Positions 14,347-19,614 of a DNA stretch of 30,800 nucleotides are shown here, piece by piece (the stretch's first letter is position 1; every line of letters starts with the position of its first letter). The DNA comes from a virus. The stretch is from the IMG/VR virus record IMGVR_UViG_3300001589_000094, positions 1 through 30,800 of that record. The stretch is one strand, 5' to 3'. Position numbers and translations under genes: made by a program. The notes under the pieces were generated by a model. The model was not told where the DNA came from. It ran no database searches and saw only the letters and a program-made list of their open reading frames with translations.

Positions 14347-14844
14347 CTATTTGCGAAGCATTCTTACACTGGCAATCCATCTGGTTCCTTCTTTTACTGG
14401 TGTAACTGCATGAGGTTCACCTACGTATGAATACAATACGCCTGAGCCCATTTTTAAATCCATAAGTTCCTTACTCATAATTAAATTGCCGCCTGTAAAT
14501 TCCTTAGAGTCTGATAACATAATTATTAAACCATGGTCAGACATTCCTTCTCTTTCTTCGTATGTATCTATATGAATGCCCATACTTGCACCTTTAGAAT
14601 AATGCATAGTTCTTAAACTAACAATATCAAAGTCTGGAAATGCTGTACTGATGGATTCAGCAATATCAACAAATTCGTTTTGGTCGTATCTTGTGAATAC
14701 ATACTTCCATTTCTCGTTTGTGTATCGTCTAGGAACAACGTTACCAGCATGATTTGTTACATCATTGTTTAAGTCATTTTGTGCAAATAATATCAGTTGT
14801 TTAATTTGATCATTATTTAAAATATTATCTACTACTTTACGCAC
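14347..14844 (-). CDS. Prolyl 4-hydroxylase-like 2OG-Fe(II) oxygenase
   Basis: HYSKGASMGIHIDTYEER (81-98) holds the HxD iron ligands (H91, D93). GLIIMLSDSKEFTGGNLIM is the central strand pair of the fold. VGEPHAVTPVKEGTRWIASV (141-160) has the distal His (H145) and the 2-oxoglutarate-binding Arg (R155). The order and spacing match the P4H-like oxygenases common in T4-like marine phages. The start is a GTG at 14844 that overlaps the end of the upstream oxygenase gene by 8 bp, so the two are translationally coupled. The substrate is unknown. Confidence 0.85.
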   Translation of the reverse strand: MRKVVDNILNNDQIKQLILFAQNDLNNDVTNHAGNVVPRRYTNEKWKYVFTRYDQNEFVDIAESISTAFPDFDIVSLRTMHYSKGASMGIHIDTYEEREGMSDHGLIIMLSDSKEFTGGNLIMSKELMDLKMGSGVLYSYVGEPHAVTPVKEGTRWIASVRMLRK

Positions 14845-15451
14845 GATATCTAATTGTTAATCCTAGTTTTGATTCGCAAAATAATCTACTTGTTGCATGT
14901 ATTTTCTTTGAGTCAAACTGTATAAAAGAACCTACTTTAAATTCATATGCGTATCCTGTTAAACCATACCAATAGTTTTTTGGATGATGACTTAGATGCT
15001 TATATAAATTACTTGGTATATCTTGTTCAGTCTTTTCATGTATGTCGAAATCACATGGCCTACCTTTTAATGATTTATTGTGTTCAAAGTCTAAATTTTC
15101 TCTAAACGTCCAAGTTCGGCCGTCACCATCGAACCATTGATCAAAGATAACTAGATATGGGTTTGACCCATTAACAACTTCTAACGGAATAACAATGTTT
15201 TCTTTTTCGTTAGTATGAAAATCTGTGTGGGGGAAATATGGGTGGCTGTGTCTATAGAAATGACAAACTGTAATTCTATCTACATCTATATTTGACTCGT
15301 TACACAATACCTCTTTTGCTTCTTTACTGCCTGCAAGTTTTTGCATATTATCAGTATCGTAACTATCTGCAGAATTATAAATGTCTTTAAGTAAGTCAAT
15401 AGAATTTTGGCTGATGCCTTTAGGGTTATAGATATTGGGTGCGAGATTCAT
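14837..15451 (-). CDS. Putative 2OG-Fe(II) oxygenase (204 aa)
   Basis: HFYRHSHPYFPHTDFHTNEK (64-83) contains an HxD pair (H75, D77), followed by NIVIPLEVV as the first core strand and YLVIFDQWFDG. The C-terminal GSFIQFDSKKIHATSRL (174-190) supplies the distal His (H185), with R201 in LTIRYRA as candidate 2-oxoglutarate contact. This is the layout of a small cupin-fold dioxygenase, but the family is less clear than for the gene it overlaps (8 bp downstream). It starts 3 bp after the stop of a small membrane protein gene, at the end of the cytochrome c transcript unit. Confidence 0.6.
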   Translation of the reverse strand: MNLAPNIYNPKGISQNSIDLLKDIYNSADSYDTDNMQKLAGSKEAKEVLCNESNIDVDRITVCHFYRHSHPYFPHTDFHTNEKENIVIPLEVVNGSNPYLVIFDQWFDGDGRTWTFRENLDFEHNKSLKGRPCDFDIHEKTEQDIPSNLYKHLSHHPKNYWYGLTGYAYEFKVGSFIQFDSKKIHATSRLFCESKLGLTIRYRA

Positions 15452-15453
15452 AG

Positions 15454-15615
15454 TTAAACTATGTATTCAGATCTTTCTACTTTTGCTGTCTTATTTTTAC
15501 CTGACTTAGTTATGTAAGGTGATGTTATACCTTTTGCTCCTTCTGAGCCAATAAGTAGTCCTATAATACATATAGTTGATGCTATAAATCCTGTCGCTAA
15601 AATTATGCCTTCCAT
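15454..15615 (-). CDS. Small membrane protein (53 aa)
   Basis: The protein begins MEGIILATGFIASTICIIGL, a single hydrophobic membrane-spanning stretch (residues about 3-23). A short polar tail follows, rich in G, S, K and T (ITKSGKNKTAKVERSEYIV). I chose the ATG at 15615 because TATAAATA ends exactly 5 nt upstream, the spacing seen at other starts in this window; a longer reading in this frame would run into the gene upstream. It overlaps nothing downstream but is only 3 bp from the next oxygenase. The function is unknown; it is the last of the small membrane proteins downstream of cytochrome c. Confidence 0.65.
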   Translation of the reverse strand: MEGIILATGFIASTICIIGLLIGSEGAKGITSPYITKSGKNKTAKVERSEYIV

Positions 15616-15620
15616 AGTGT

Positions 15621-15628
15621 TATTTATA
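15621..15628 (-). promoter_or_regulatory. Perfect T4-type late promoter TATAAATA
   Basis: TATAAATA on the minus strand ends 5 nt (ACACT) before the ATG at 15615. It overlaps the last codon and the stop of the preceding small membrane protein gene. Confidence 0.55.
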
Positions 15629-15785
15629 TTACAAGACTTACTAACAAAAGTAATCCGGTTATTGAACCTAAAAAGAAAAATGCAACTAGTAATGCAAACC
15701 ATAGTATAGAAATTGGCTTGATTTTAAACTTACCTTCAGACTTTGTTCCGACACCTAGGACGGCTTTTATTGCATCTCTAATCAT
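15624..15785 (-). CDS. Small membrane protein (53 aa)
   Basis: The minus strand encodes 53 residues: a basic/amphipathic N-terminus (MIRDAIKAVLGVGTKSEGKF, then KIKP) and one long hydrophobic helix (ISILWFALLVAFFFLGSITG, then LLLLVSLVI) ending at the C-terminus. The start codon shares its A with the stop of the upstream 100-aa membrane protein (TAATG), so translation is coupled. Positive charges before the helix suggest an N-in orientation. The family is not recognised. It is part of the chain of small membrane proteins that follows cytochrome c. Confidence 0.65.
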   Translation of the reverse strand: MIRDAIKAVLGVGTKSEGKFKIKPISILWFALLVAFFFLGSITGLLLLVSLVI

Positions 15786-16087
15786 TAGAAGATTAGTTGA
15801 TTAAGTAGCATAACTGCTAACATCATGCCAAATACTACAATCTGTATAACAGCAGGTATCACTACGAACATTACCATTGGATCAAAATCCATTTTGTTCC
15901 AGTAATCGTTTTCTCTCCAATGATCCATTTCCTCTGGAGTACAAGGTTCCGGTGCCCATATCATTCCAGGTTGTCTTGCTACATCTTGATACGGTGTAGT
16001 AAATTCTAAATCAAGTTGTTTAACATTATCTAAAGTATGAATAGGTTGTACTTCTTTTACTGGCCTTTTCCAAACATCATTTTTCAT
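15785..16087 (-). CDS. C-terminally anchored membrane protein (100 aa)
   Basis: Residues 1-68 are polar with many W, P, D and E (for example PGMIWAPEPCTPEEMDHWRE). The last about 30 residues (MVMFVVIPAVIQIVVFGMML and on) form one strongly hydrophobic helix, possibly folded as a hairpin at the membrane. This is a tail-anchor layout. It overlaps the upstream 42-aa gene by 11 bp and the downstream gene by one base. The family is unknown to me. Its position suggests a partner of the cytochrome c encoded two genes upstream. Confidence 0.7.
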   Translation of the reverse strand: MKNDVWKRPVKEVQPIHTLDNVKQLDLEFTTPYQDVARQPGMIWAPEPCTPEEMDHWRENDYWNKMDFDPMVMFVVIPAVIQIVVFGMMLAVMLLNQLIF

Positions 16088-16205
16088 CTTTTGGCTCTAA
16101 GTAGTATTGAGTATTATTAATATCTCGTAACCCACGCAAGATTCCTGCTAGGTTATCAGTCTGTGCGGCAAATAGTAGTATTGTATAACACAGAACGTAT
16201 TTCAT
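16077..16205 (-). CDS. Small, possibly exported protein (42 aa)
   Basis: The minus strand reads MKYVLCYTILLFAAQTDNLA then GILRGLRDINNTQYYLEPKD and EK. The N-terminus looks like a short signal peptide or lipoprotein-like leader: one Lys, then a hydrophobic run with C6, and a possible AxA-type cleavage near FAAQ. The remainder is a short polar peptide. It starts one base after the cytochrome c stop (TAATATG) and overlaps the next gene by 11 bp, so it is firmly embedded in the same unit. Confidence 0.6.
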   Translation of the reverse strand: MKYVLCYTILLFAAQTDNLAGILRGLRDINNTQYYLEPKDEK

Positions 16206-16206
16206 A

Positions 16207-16653
16207 TTATGCCTCTGGTAAACCGGCTTGTATATATTCACCGATCATGCTAATTTGTTTGTCTGACAGCATCGCCGCTTGTCCCCACATCATTGCACTC
16301 ATTGGTCCAACTTGTTCTTTGTTCTTGTATGCTATAAGCCTACCATTGATGTAGTCTGCTGTTTGTCCAGCAAGTTTAGGTCCTACACCGCCACCACCAT
16401 CAGGTCCGTGACATGCGGCACAACCACTCCATAGACTTCTAATATCACTAAAAGGATCACCTGCGGCTAACACCTGTTTGGCTTTTAGTTGATCTACTGA
16501 TGTGCCGTTAAGTGCAACATACTCTCTATAGCACTCGCCTGTACAAGACTGGTTACTGCTGTATCCAGTATACTCTAATGACGGGTAAATTTTAAGTGAA
16601 AAAAATGCAAATATTACCATGCATCCTACTACGGCCATTCCTAATTCTCTCAT
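16207..16653 (-). CDS. Membrane-anchored class I cytochrome c
   Basis: Residues 1-25 form a signal-anchor helix (ELGMAVVGCMVIFAFFSLKI). The heme motif is CAACH (C78, C81, H82). GPKLAGQTADYINGRLIAYK (91-110) follows, and the axial Met is in GPMSAMMWGQA (M118, M121 or M122). LSDKQISMIGEYIQAGL is the C-terminal helix. The layout resembles c4/c5/c553-type diheme- or monoheme-oxidase donors, here monoheme. An extra CxxxC (C37, C41) sits between the anchor and the heme domain. It would work at the periplasmic face of the host inner membrane as an electron carrier and depends on host heme ligation (CcmF/H or equivalent). It is coupled on both sides to small membrane protein genes. Confidence 0.92.
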   Translation of the reverse strand: MRELGMAVVGCMVIFAFFSLKIYPSLEYTGYSSNQSCTGECYREYVALNGTSVDQLKAKQVLAAGDPFSDIRSLWSGCAACHGPDGGGGVGPKLAGQTADYINGRLIAYKNKEQVGPMSAMMWGQAAMLSDKQISMIGEYIQAGLPEA

Positions 16654-16654
16654 C

Positions 16655-16756
16655 TTAGTTTACCGGTGTAAGTGCAATTATGCTTACGAGAAATACTGCT
16701 GTTAAAGTTAGAACTTCTGCTCTGTCTCTTAGTTTTGTGATGCTATGTTGGCTCAT
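16655..16756 (-). CDS. Very small single-span membrane protein (33 aa)
   Basis: The minus strand encodes MSQHSITKLRDRAEVLTLTA then VFLVSIIALTPVN. A polar, mildly basic N-terminus is followed by one hydrophobic helix ending at the C-terminus. The stop TAA is one base before the ATG of cytochrome c, so the two are almost certainly co-translated. It is the first gene of the cassette. It resembles the tiny single-helix subunits of respiratory complexes only in size and layout; no family can be named. Confidence 0.6.
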   Translation of the reverse strand: MSQHSITKLRDRAEVLTLTAVFLVSIIALTPVN

Positions 16757-16841: not shown

Positions 16842-16890
16842 AAAAACGTCTATAACCTAAGGTTATATTTGTTTATAACATCTATTTATA
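16842..16890 (-). promoter_or_regulatory. Late promoter TATAAATA and hairpin ahead of the cytochrome c unit
   Basis: The 168-bp gap 16757-16924 has no gene. On the minus strand TATAAATA lies at 16883-16890. The hairpin TATAACC-TTA-GGTTATA (16851-16867) follows, then GACG and TTTTT (16842-16846), which could be a weak terminator for the upstream asparagine-synthase-like gene or an attenuator for the late transcript. Further down, TTGATT with TAATAC (16776-16796) is a poor sigma70 candidate. The leader also contains ACCTCCTTA (16827-16835). Confidence 0.4.
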
Positions 16891-16924: not shown

Positions 16925-17935
16925 TTAGAAGTCAAAATGGAATCCGTTGACACATTTGCTATTAGATTTTTTTATTGCTTCTTCAAAACGTTTGGGAATT
17001 TGTTTTGTTGCATCATCAAAATTATTTTTGTATCTAAAGCCGGATACCGTTGGCATGTATTGTTCCATAGGCTCTCTATATAATTTGTCGAATTGATTAT
17101 ATATGCCGGACTTAATAGCAAGAATTTTTTTCAGCCTTTCAAAGCCGCCTACTTTCATTAAAGTATCAACATCGCCAGGAATAATAGAATTCCAAACTGC
17201 TTTTTTAAATTCTAGTGTTTCTCTGAATTGCGGTTCCTGTTGGCTTACAATTACATGCATCTTTTGTTCTTGAACTATTTTTACTTGCTTATCTAGTATT
17301 TGATATAGTGCTTGTGGAGAACAATAAGATATATTTTTAATCAACTGTATGCCTTTGCTTTCACAAATATCATGATATGGTTTTATACTGCCAATAATAA
17401 GATTAGGGGAGTCTATATGTAAGTATTGAAGTCCAATACCATGGTCTATATCTGAATATGTTAAGTAAGGCATGTCGCCTCCCATTACTAATTTGCTATT
17501 AGGAGGTATATGTCTGTCTATAAATTCTAAATGCATAGCAACCTGTGGACTAAAGACTTGTAATTTTCTTCCCCATTTCATATGATGGTTACCATAATAA
17601 AATTCTTTTAAATCAAAGTCTATAACTTTCAAGGCTACATTGAATTTGTTTGCAACTTCTTGTGCATATACAACATCGTCTGTATTTACAACTCCACCGT
17701 TCCATGTTGTTTTATATGTAATTGCTGTAAACTGTATGTTAAAATGCTGTAACAGTCTTAACATAAATTGGCTGTCTGTTCCGCCACTTAACATCAAGGT
17801 ACAACCATCAAAGTCTTTTAATTCGTTGTGATATCTCTCTAATAATGTTAAGTTATCATCCGGTTTTTGTATCGTATAGGCACACATGTGGTCCTGTAGT
17901 AAAACAGAATTTGGTTGGCCTAAACTAAAATTCAT
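16925..17935 (-). CDS. Asparagine-synthase-like ATP-pyrophosphatase (PP-loop) protein
   Basis: TLMLSGGTDSQFMLRLLQHF (46-65) contains the PP-loop SGGxDS that binds ATP in N-type ATP pyrophosphatases. The following strand, IQFTAITYKTTWNGGVVNTD, and the Asp-rich DVVYAQEVANKFNVALKVID match the synthetase domain of asparagine synthases and their relatives. The N-terminal glutamine amidotransferase domain is absent; the protein starts 45 residues before the PP-loop. It should adenylate a carboxylate and form an amide or similar bond, using ammonia or another amine. Stand-alone domains of this type occur in marine phages and in peptide-cyclising enzymes. The substrate is unknown. A divergent promoter region separates it from the subtilase gene. 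Confidence 0.75.
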   Translation of the reverse strand: MNFSLGQPNSVLLQDHMCAYTIQKPDDNLTLLERYHNELKDFDGCTLMLSGGTDSQFMLRLLQHFNIQFTAITYKTTWNGGVVNTDDVVYAQEVANKFNVALKVIDFDLKEFYYGNHHMKWGRKLQVFSPQVAMHLEFIDRHIPPNSKLVMGGDMPYLTYSDIDHGIGLQYLHIDSPNLIIGSIKPYHDICESKGIQLIKNISYCSPQALYQILDKQVKIVQEQKMHVIVSQQEPQFRETLEFKKAVWNSIIPGDVDTLMKVGGFERLKKILAIKSGIYNQFDKLYREPMEQYMPTVSGFRYKNNFDDATKQIPKRFEEAIKKSNSKCVNGFHFDF

Positions 17936-17980
17936 ATAAATACCAAGTAAGTAAAATTATCTTTATTAATGTGATAAATA
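17935..17980 (+). promoter_or_regulatory. Two tandem late promoters for the subtilase gene
   Basis: TATAAATA (17935-17942, exact consensus, overlapping the start of the divergent gene) and GATAAATA (17973-17980) both point at the subtilase ATG at 18016. TTGGAG, 8 nt before the ATG, is the ribosome-binding site, so this mRNA is leadered. Confidence 0.55.
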
Positions 17981-18015: not shown

Positions 18016-19614
18016 ATGGCATCATATATCATCAAACTAGATAAGGCAGTTCACAGTACATCTGATCAATGTAATACTGCTATTACTAATGCCGGTGCAA
18101 CAGTATCTTCGAACTATAACATGTTCGGAAGTTATAAAGTCGACGGGACGTCGGAACAAGTAGCGGCGATCAACGGACTTAAAAGTAGTCAGTTAGAGGC
18201 AGACGAGGTTACAAGTACCCTCTCTATTGCCACTGTAAACAATACTTTTAGAAAATATGCTGGATTAGATGCAAGTGATAAACCTGCATGGAATCCTACA
18301 AGCACTGGAACAAATGCAAAAGTCTATTTATTAGACACTGGAGTAAATGCTACTCACAACGAATTCGGTAGTTCAACTATCACAAACCTTTACAATACAT
18401 CTATTGCAACTGGCTATACAGACAGTAATGGTCATGGAACAGCAATGGCAAGTCTTATTGTAGGGGATAACTTAGGTTCATCACCAGATGCAACCTTATT
18501 TAATGTTAAAATGTTTAACGAAGGTGCAGGTAATATTTCAATTGGAGAAGTTATTGGTGCTTTAGATCAAGTTTCAACTCACCATTCTGCTAATGATGCC
18601 GCAGATCCAAAAGTAGTTTGTATGTGTTTTACAATGACAAAAAGTTCATTGATTGATGATACACTAAATGATATGTTAGATGACGGCTTACTTATTGTAG
18701 CGGCCGCAGGTAACGATGGTGGAGAAGTAGATAACTTTTCACCAGGCGGACTTGATACTGTTATTACAGTAGGATCAGTAGACGTTAATTACCAAGTTAT
18801 GGACGCAACCAACAGACCAATTGTTAATACATCAGCAAATATTGACATTGAAAGATCAGTTAATAACAATGCTAAATTAGATATTTTTGCAATTGGACAA
18901 AACGTAATGATTGCAGACAGTAGTAATGTTGCAAACTATACATGGCAGGATGGAACCTCAGTTTCAACTGCAATTACATCAAGTGTTATTGCACAGTATA
19001 TTGATATATACGGTTCAAAAACTGCAAACGAAATTAAATCAACAGTAGTAACAGAAGGACATATTTACGCAAGAAAGAGTAGTGATGCTGGCAATAATTC
19101 AAACACTTTACTAAGATATGATAACTTAACATTTGACTCAGGTAAAGCATTAGATTCAGGTAACGTTAGTTTCTCACTTGCTTATTCACCACAAAGTACA
19201 GACGTAACATTTGCAACTGCACCATCAGGTAGGTTGTTTGATATTGCTTACGGTGGTAATGCAACTGTAAATATTGGTTTAAGTGGTTCTGCAAGTAATG
19301 TTGCAGTTATTGACTTTAGTCCTTTATCACCATGGATGACATTTGATACAAGTTCAGGTGTTGTTACAGCAGATACTTCAAACTCAACACTGGCACCATC
19401 AAGTATTACTCCAGGTATTTACAATTTTGCTGTTAAAGGAACAATGGGCAGTAAAACAATAGTTGAAGAATATTCAATTGGTGTTTATGCCGCAGATGGT
19501 AGTGCTGAAGACTTAAACGTTGCAGACGAATATTACTACGATGATGATGCAAACGATTATGAAGCAGTTATATCATATGCTGTGGCCCCAACAGGCGGCG
19601 GTTTTAAACCGTAA
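18016..19614 (+). CDS. Subtilisin-like serine protease (S8) with I9-like propeptide
   Basis: Residues 1-70 resemble a subtilase propeptide (ASYIIKLDKAV..., then GTSEQVAAING). The catalytic triad is in order: D107 in VYLLDTGVNATHNEFG, H140 in SNGHGTAMASLIVG, S315 in DGTSVSTA. The oxyanion Asn is N233 in AAAGNDGG. Residues about 375-532 form a beta-rich C-terminal part with SPWMTFDTSSGVVTADTS, similar to Ig/cadherin-like folds, and an acidic Tyr-rich tail (DEYYYDDDAND). No signal peptide is seen, so it probably acts inside the cell on virion proteins or is carried in the particle. The Ser motif GTSVSTA departs from the usual GTSMAxP. A good ribosome-binding site and two late promoters precede it, and an intrinsic terminator follows. 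Confidence 0.9.
   Translation: MASYIIKLDKAVHSTSDQCNTAITNAGATVSSNYNMFGSYKVDGTSEQVAAINGLKSSQLEADEVTSTLSIATVNNTFRKYAGLDASDKPAWNPTSTGTNAKVYLLDTGVNATHNEFGSSTITNLYNTSIATGYTDSNGHGTAMASLIVGDNLGSSPDATLFNVKMFNEGAGNISIGEVIGALDQVSTHHSANDAADPKVVCMCFTMTKSSLIDDTLNDMLDDGLLIVAAAGNDGGEVDNFSPGGLDTVITVGSVDVNYQVMDATNRPIVNTSANIDIERSVNNNAKLDIFAIGQNVMIADSSNVANYTWQDGTSVSTAITSSVIAQYIDIYGSKTANEIKSTVVTEGHIYARKSSDAGNNSNTLLRYDNLTFDSGKALDSGNVSFSLAYSPQSTDVTFATAPSGRLFDIAYGGNATVNIGLSGSASNVAVIDFSPLSPWMTFDTSSGVVTADTSNSTLAPSSITPGIYNFAVKGTMGSKTIVEEYSIGVYAADGSAEDLNVADEYYYDDDANDYEAVISYAVAPTGGGFKP

Follow-up and report, generated by a model that had tools for sequence, protein, structure and literature searches.

Six tightly packed genes on the minus strand of the window, by which we mean the whole 30,800-nucleotide stretch of viral DNA that was analysed, appear to be the cytochrome c form of a late-expressed phage cassette for respiratory electron transfer, which would sustain the flow of quinol and cytochrome electrons to oxygen while infection lasts. 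We give this reading, drawn from sequence comparison, a probability of about 0.7. That the genes may install a redox module in host respiration had been proposed from the window alone, and comparison with related loci strongly supported the proposal: the small-protein families of the cluster were found beside alternative oxidase (AOX), pseudoazurin, ferredoxin, quinone-dependent dihydroorotate dehydrogenase (DHODH) and SdhB, the last with one weak relative of the tail-anchored protein TA. The features of the window are the following (A1, 26-sequence alignment of the cytochrome; A2, family alignment of TA).

16883..16890, minus strand: TATAAATA, T4-type late-promoter motif 5′ of A33, kept at the aligned position in relatives
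16655..16756, minus strand: A33, single-helix membrane protein, 33 aa, first in the cluster; ORF with homologues
16207..16653, minus strand: CYT, membrane-anchored class I cytochrome c, 148 aa; PF00034, E=2.7e-8
16531..16545, minus strand: C-x-G-x-C, residues 37-41 of CYT, lying between the anchor and the heme domain; all 96 distinct phage sequences have C-x3-C
16408..16422, minus strand: CAACH heme-binding motif, residues 78-82 of CYT; CxxCH in 96/96 distinct phage sequences
16288..16290, minus strand: Met122 of CYT, probable distal heme ligand (MWxQA); invariant in A1, MWxQA in 95/96 distinct phage sequences
16077..16205, minus strand: P42, exported or membrane peptide, 42 aa; homologues in 17 loci
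15785..16087, minus strand: TA, tail-anchored protein, 100 aa; in 47/80 cytochrome c-seeded loci, alignment A2
15624..15785, minus strand: P53, membrane protein, 53 aa; homologues beside cytochrome c, AOX and pseudoazurin
15454..15615, minus strand: P53B, membrane protein, 53 aa; homologues beside cytochrome c and AOX
14837..15451, minus strand: 204-aa protein of unknown family, 2 nt after the cluster; no Pfam match
14347..14844, minus strand: 165-aa 2OG-Fe(II) oxygenase-like protein, overlapping the 204-aa gene by 8 nt; PF13640, E=8e-8

All six ORFs were present at 15454-16756 as the first-pass annotation had claimed, with products of 33, 148 (the cytochrome c), 42, 100, 53 and 53 aa in this order, and the close spacing it had described was found as well, the successive junctions being +1, +1, −11, −1 and +8 nt. 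Given the 2-nt gap and 8-nt overlap listed above, the co-directional run probably extends into the 204-aa and 165-aa genes; homologues of the 204-aa protein were found in contigs L298, there too after P53B, and L114. The five small ORFs are real genes, judging from homologues placed at the same position in other contigs and from dN/dS ratios of 0.11-0.74. These ratios were derived from codon changes relative to L090 and L114, one TA comparison being saturated. They were 0.15-0.16 for CYT, which by this measure is under purifying selection, 0.13 for P42 and 0.11-0.30 for P53, and they reached 0.35-0.61 for A33 and 0.68-0.74 for P53B, both short and weakly constrained. Searches against Pfam and PHROG returned no family match for any of the five small proteins, and NCBIfam, PADLOC and PHROG gave no useful match for these or for the cytochrome. 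P53B has a conserved basic C-terminal tail, GxKGI..PY...G..xTA...RE.YIV, and the transmembrane helix of TA carries an invariant Gln and Met in alignment A2. Neither AOX nor another quinone enzyme is contained in the window, a 30.8-kb fragment.

The motif TATAAATA, which we take to be the T4 late-promoter core, was found 5′ of A33, and 6 of 7 relatives have it at the corresponding position of the alignment. It occurs three times in the window, a count not above chance, and only its conserved position, not its number, is treated here as informative; from this position we infer that the cluster is expressed late. Between the motif and A33 lies a palindrome, TATAACC-TTA-GGTTATA (16851-16867), followed by a T-rich stretch; it varies among relatives and is possibly a terminator or a hairpin. 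The third copy of the motif (17935-17942) is just 5′ of a plus-strand subtilase gene (18016-19614), whose matches among phage records are all distant (at most 31% identity).

The second gene had been called a membrane-anchored class I cytochrome c, and this assignment held. Its product has one hydrophobic N-terminal helix and the CAACH motif, and it matched Pfam Cytochrom_C above the cut-off. Met122 falls within the region aligned to the Met ligand of cytochrome c4. An AF2 model of the cytochrome alone, without heme, matched the PDB structures of c554, c546-556 and c553 by Foldseek (E≤7e-4, TM-score by target 0.74-0.83). Both by sequence and by fold, the closest solved structures were c552/c554/c553 and c4, and c4 is a component of the Pseudomonas aeruginosa bc1-cbb3 supercomplex (entry 8smr). 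By its CxxCH motif, distal Met and modelled fold, the window protein is thus a class I cytochrome c, with covalent heme attachment and redox activity predicted. The C-x-G-x-C segment, also present in most cellular homologues of the phage protein, is probably a disulphide. A CuA site at C-x3-C, as in Cox2/caa3 subunit II, was considered and rejected: there was no cupredoxin match, and A1 has no invariant His other than the heme His82. The protein is not a cytochrome c4 either, having a single CxxCH in 148 aa versus the two heme domains of c4.

Scanning with A1 detected the cytochrome family in at least 509 IMG/VR contigs (a first scan had given 110), and it was absent from all 50,697 GenBank phage records, no cultured phage being found to have it. 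The nearest cellular proteins came from Halieaceae and related marine gammaproteobacteria; they too are anchored cytochromes c, with the N-terminal anchor and C-x-G-x-C of the phage protein. Such relatives were encoded by Halieaceae MAGs and by 23 of the 294 genomes searched within that order; among 369 genomes sampled across the class, a stricter limit gave only one. Their gene neighbourhoods were varied, unrelated and devoid of small membrane proteins, and provided no operon clue. In a tree of 87 sequences, whose inner forks are unsure owing to the few columns, 65 phage cytochromes formed one clade (100/100), while those of L300 and L328 fell among the cellular ones, apart from this clade; at least two acquisitions are therefore likely. 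Because it is carried by hundreds of viral contigs, several of them also bearing the capsid gene gp23, and has cellular homologues, the cytochrome qualifies on sequence grounds as an auxiliary metabolic gene, a host-derived metabolic gene resident in phage genomes. A second phage cytochrome c, probably acquired independently, was observed about 1.6-1.8 kb from AOX in L304 (3807-4651) and L328; two different small membrane proteins follow it immediately downstream.

Homologues of the small proteins were looked for by profile searches in 81 non-redundant cytochrome loci. A33 lay directly upstream of cytochrome c in 21 of them, and its homologues were also found upstream of AOX- or DHODH-bearing clusters. 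P42 was detected in 17/81 loci, adjoining the cytochrome c or TA gene, a further 59-aa helix protein (T59) in 15/81, P53B in 9/81 and P53 in 7/81. A TA relative was present in 47 of 80 cytochrome-seeded loci, always on the strand of the cytochrome and within about 1 kb; the order flips, TA being upstream in some loci and downstream in others. This pairing was seen in NrdB-Grx, UvsW-gp55 and PP-loop-lipase contexts, and NrdB and glutaredoxin are frequent direct neighbours in many of these phages. A search seeded on TA recovered 359 IMG/VR contigs. Among the best 80 of these loci, 41 had the cytochrome, in 39 cases less than 200 bp away, and 39 had none within the stretch examined, some loci being truncated.

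These counts bear on the first-pass annotation, which had described the genes as one coupled unit. Association with the cytochrome is borne out by the 47 TA-containing loci, but the set is not obligate: the small genes persist without the cytochrome, as in the 39 TA loci just mentioned, the cytochrome was also found without the small genes, and in L188, L192 and L201 it is missing from an otherwise intact cluster, all within the stretches examined. By the standard that the annotation had set for its own refutation, this counts in part against it. The small genes are nevertheless not generic phage proteins, the TA family having no match in the 50,697 phage records. Because the small proteins also occur without the cytochrome, the six genes of the window are, on present comparisons, one variant rather than an obligate unit.

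Where the cytochrome was missing, another respiratory enzyme was often in its place. Redox genes met in the island of small proteins were cytochrome c, AOX, pseudoazurin, an FdxA-like ferredoxin, DHODH and SdhB. NCBIfam curated cut-offs were passed by pseudoazurin (TIGR02375 equivalog), DHODH and SdhB, the ferredoxin remaining below its cut-off. In L213, the series T59-A33-TA-P42 is followed by AOX. The AOX proteins of L213 (6364-6936) and L298 (6001-6594) matched PF01786 with E=3e-67 and 1e-67, respectively, and both have the di-iron ligand motifs LET, NERMH, EEEA and DExxH, which identifies them as AOX. The gene, of bacterial type and in gp23-bearing marine phages, was found in 225 IMG/VR viral contigs. 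Its sole match among GenBank phages was an unannotated gene of Phage C48C1 (OQ984149.1, 62%). The cytochrome was present in 32 of 80 AOX-seeded loci, within about 2.2 kb in 31 of these. When 40 distinct AOX loci with flanks of at least 1.5 kb were considered, 28 were accompanied, on the same strand and no more than 1.5 kb away, by one or more of the cassette families (cytochrome 17, TA 14), rates that are somewhat inflated as the scans were seeded on cytochrome, TA and AOX.

L298, a locus on a 250-kb contig that also bears the gp23 capsid gene, is syntenic with the window. It reads A33-CYT-EF-hand-pseudoazurin-TA-P53-ferredoxin-AOX-P53B, so that the framework of the window (PP-loop protein, A33, cytochrome, then TA and P53, then P53B, 204-aa protein and lipase) is kept, with an exported EF-hand protein, pseudoazurin, the FdxA-like ferredoxin and AOX as additions. 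Elsewhere, pseudoazurin is directly upstream of the cytochrome (L064), and DHODH is found with pseudoazurin inside A33-T59 ... TA-P53 (L358, 3823-4989), immediately following A33, where the cytochrome would otherwise be (L376), or flanked by TA and P53 (L370). In L360-L362, an Fe-S assembly protein and SdhB precede AOX, the SdhB-AOX pair being followed in L361 and L362 by a weak TA relative. A redoxin is near TA in L249.

Several further observations were made in these loci. DHODH in the small-protein framework (L358, L376 and L370) ties the island to pyrimidine synthesis. SdhB is directly before AOX in three contigs (L273, 5289-6008; L276; L361), and it also lies near a divergent cytochrome c in L367 and beside rubrerythrin in L366. 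The exported EF-hand protein, of 82-83 aa, is followed by a helix protein of about 30 aa ('..PWEIPAVL..') in L079 (4450-4701), L298 (4509-4760), L358 and L359. Finally, a conserved membrane protein of 120-133 aa ('YNPLxYIPDPSLQxYF'), with no Pfam match, is found beside cytochrome c or AOX in L301 (5178-5579), L077 and L273 (4309-4671).

As to the phages themselves, the cytochrome or AOX was found on contigs of 80-250 kb that also carry a T4-type gp23 capsid gene. The gp23 of the L142 phage was nearest to those of Methylophilales phage Melnitz (68%) and Pelagibacter phage HTVC008M (64%), that of L298 to Pseudomonas jumbo phages (69%), and the NrdA of the window to that of a Stenotrophomonas phage. 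These similarities point to different lineages, and the cassette therefore occurs in several of them. Cellular homologues of the cytochrome and of AOX were found together in four small gammaproteobacterial genomes (G492, G542, G563 and G623), which are candidate donors or hosts. Some phage contigs bearing the cytochrome or AOX (L082, L083, L084 and L085; in genome G417, an AOX 85% identical) had been binned into bacterial MAGs of Synechococcus, Planctomycetaceae and Sphingobacteriales.

We propose that, late in infection, the host would mature the phage cytochrome, which would be located at the inner membrane, on its periplasmic side, and, as suggested by its resemblance to the c4/c552/c554 carriers, could take electrons from the bc1 complex of the host and pass them to a terminal oxidase, the presence of bc1 or cbb3 in the host being assumed. 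AOX, where present, would drain ubiquinol directly to oxygen, and DHODH and SdhB would feed the quinone pool. The small proteins may be accessory or anchoring subunits that tie the carriers to host respiratory complexes, or redirect them; this role is the weakest step of the mechanism. The net effect would be a quinone pool kept oxidised, allowing quinone-coupled nucleotide synthesis and energy supply to continue while host synthesis is shut down. Tentatively, and with more doubt than confidence, one may go further and imagine A33, TA, P53, P53B, P42 and T59 as subunits of a new phage-encoded complex in the membrane. Such a complex would attach interchangeable redox cores, be they cytochrome c, pseudoazurin, AOX, DHODH or SdhB, to the host respiratory chain and thereby divert the flow of electrons in infected cells.

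The small proteins could also be host-takeover or lysis/exclusion peptides, their association with the cytochrome being positional, within a shared cargo-rich late transcription unit, and not functional. Membrane effectors are common among phage proteins of this size with a single helix, and the persistence of the small proteins without cytochrome c (39/80 TA loci; L188, L192 and L201) and the lack of homology to oxidase subunits in the Pfam search fit such a role. We consider it unlikely, since TA lies at most about 1 kb from cytochrome c, on the same strand, in 47/47 cytochrome-seeded loci that have TA, across several genome contexts, and since cytochrome c, AOX, pseudoazurin, DHODH and SdhB are all linked to the quinone/cytochrome part of the chain, even if other redox neighbours exist (redoxin in L249, rubrerythrin in L366). 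The same redoxin and rubrerythrin, together with glutaredoxins near the cluster in relatives and the exported EF-hand protein of some clusters, could instead indicate a non-respiratory cytochrome, one that would supply electrons to a detoxifying enzyme such as a periplasmic peroxidase, or would capture heme or iron late in infection. The repeated pairing with a quinol oxidase (AOX) and quinone reductases points rather to the respiratory chain, and in general inspection of the genes adjoining the clusters examined no cytochrome c peroxidase was noticed; we regard this alternative as quite improbable.

The genes might also belong to cyanophages and serve photosynthetic electron flow: two contigs were binned into a Synechococcus MAG, the GenBank phage with the nearest AOX is filed under Kyanoviridae, and petE and PTOX are carried by cyanophages (PMC3037559). 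This is very improbable, as no cyanophage PTOX was matched by AOX at E≤1e-3, pseudoazurin, a TIGR02375 equivalog, is only weakly like phage plastocyanin, the cytochrome nests with gammaproteobacterial cytochromes, and the capsids are nearest to those of Methylophilales and Pelagibacter phages and, for L298, of Pseudomonas jumbo phages. A cyanophage origin is thus disfavoured by the AOX, pseudoazurin and capsid comparisons. Mis-assembly, or cellular sequence filed as viral, is a concern insofar as the window represents a fragment and viromes have been documented to contain cellular contaminants (PMC3877843), but seems scarcely credible for genes that occur with T4-type gp23 on contigs of 80-250 kb, form their own clade of 65 phage cytochromes and, in these loci, are flanked by phage NrdA/NrdB and structural-type genes.

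The open-access literature yielded no description of this system or of the cytochrome family. Respiratory genes in marine viruses have likewise been suggested from a 'cbb3 cytochrome c oxidase subunit I' in viral fractions (PMC3474794) and from sdh and electron transport gene families in viromes (PMC4053976), in both cases by read-level annotation and without the cytochrome family, the cassette or the small proteins. Among cellular proteins, the anchored cytochrome c of Halieaceae and related Pseudomonadales, an unnamed family found here, shares with the phage cytochrome the N-terminal anchor, C-x-G-x-C, CxxCH, a conserved M-containing segment and the length; its genes, however, stand alone in varied neighbourhoods, and the phage proteins make a separate clade. 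The heme domain resembles in fold and sequence cytochromes c4/c5/c552/c554, electron donors to cbb3-type oxidases, but the phage cytochrome has a single heme (c4 has two), is permanently anchored and has the extra cysteine motif. The small proteins recall the single-helix oxidase subunits CcoM/CcoQ (cbb3) and CydX/CydH (bd) in size, helix and respiratory proximity, by analogy only; no match to any Pfam model was found for these proteins, which are so short that homology to CcoQ, CcoM or CydX could be missed.

Cyanophages are the textbook case of phage control over host electron flow. If the reading as a respiratory cassette is true, it would be a counterpart in phages of non-photosynthetic marine bacteria, widespread and acting on oxygen respiration, and the comparisons suggest that, by means of this compact group of genes, many uncultured marine phages rewire their hosts' respiratory chain. 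It concerns lineages without GenBank representation for the cytochrome or TA, brings to light several families of very small phage membrane proteins for which a place of action is predicted, and supplies testable genes (AOX, cytochrome c) for the question of whether infection alters bacterial oxygen use. The closest known system is the cyanophage photosynthetic electron-transport cassette, made of petE plastocyanin and PTOX with zwf/gnd, petF ferredoxin being elsewhere (PMC3037559). Membership in it was rejected: AOX had no PTOX match, pseudoazurin is only weakly like plastocyanin, and no photosynthesis or photosystem genes were seen in the clusters examined. The resemblance is one of logic. 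Both cassettes are mobile and sporadic, belong to T4-like marine phages and combine a cupredoxin and a ferredoxin with a quinol oxidase from the AOX/PTOX superfamily, whereas here the parts are respiratory (bacterial AOX, pseudoazurin, anchored cytochrome c, DHODH and SdhB) and are accompanied by families of tiny membrane proteins not reported for the cyanophage cassettes.
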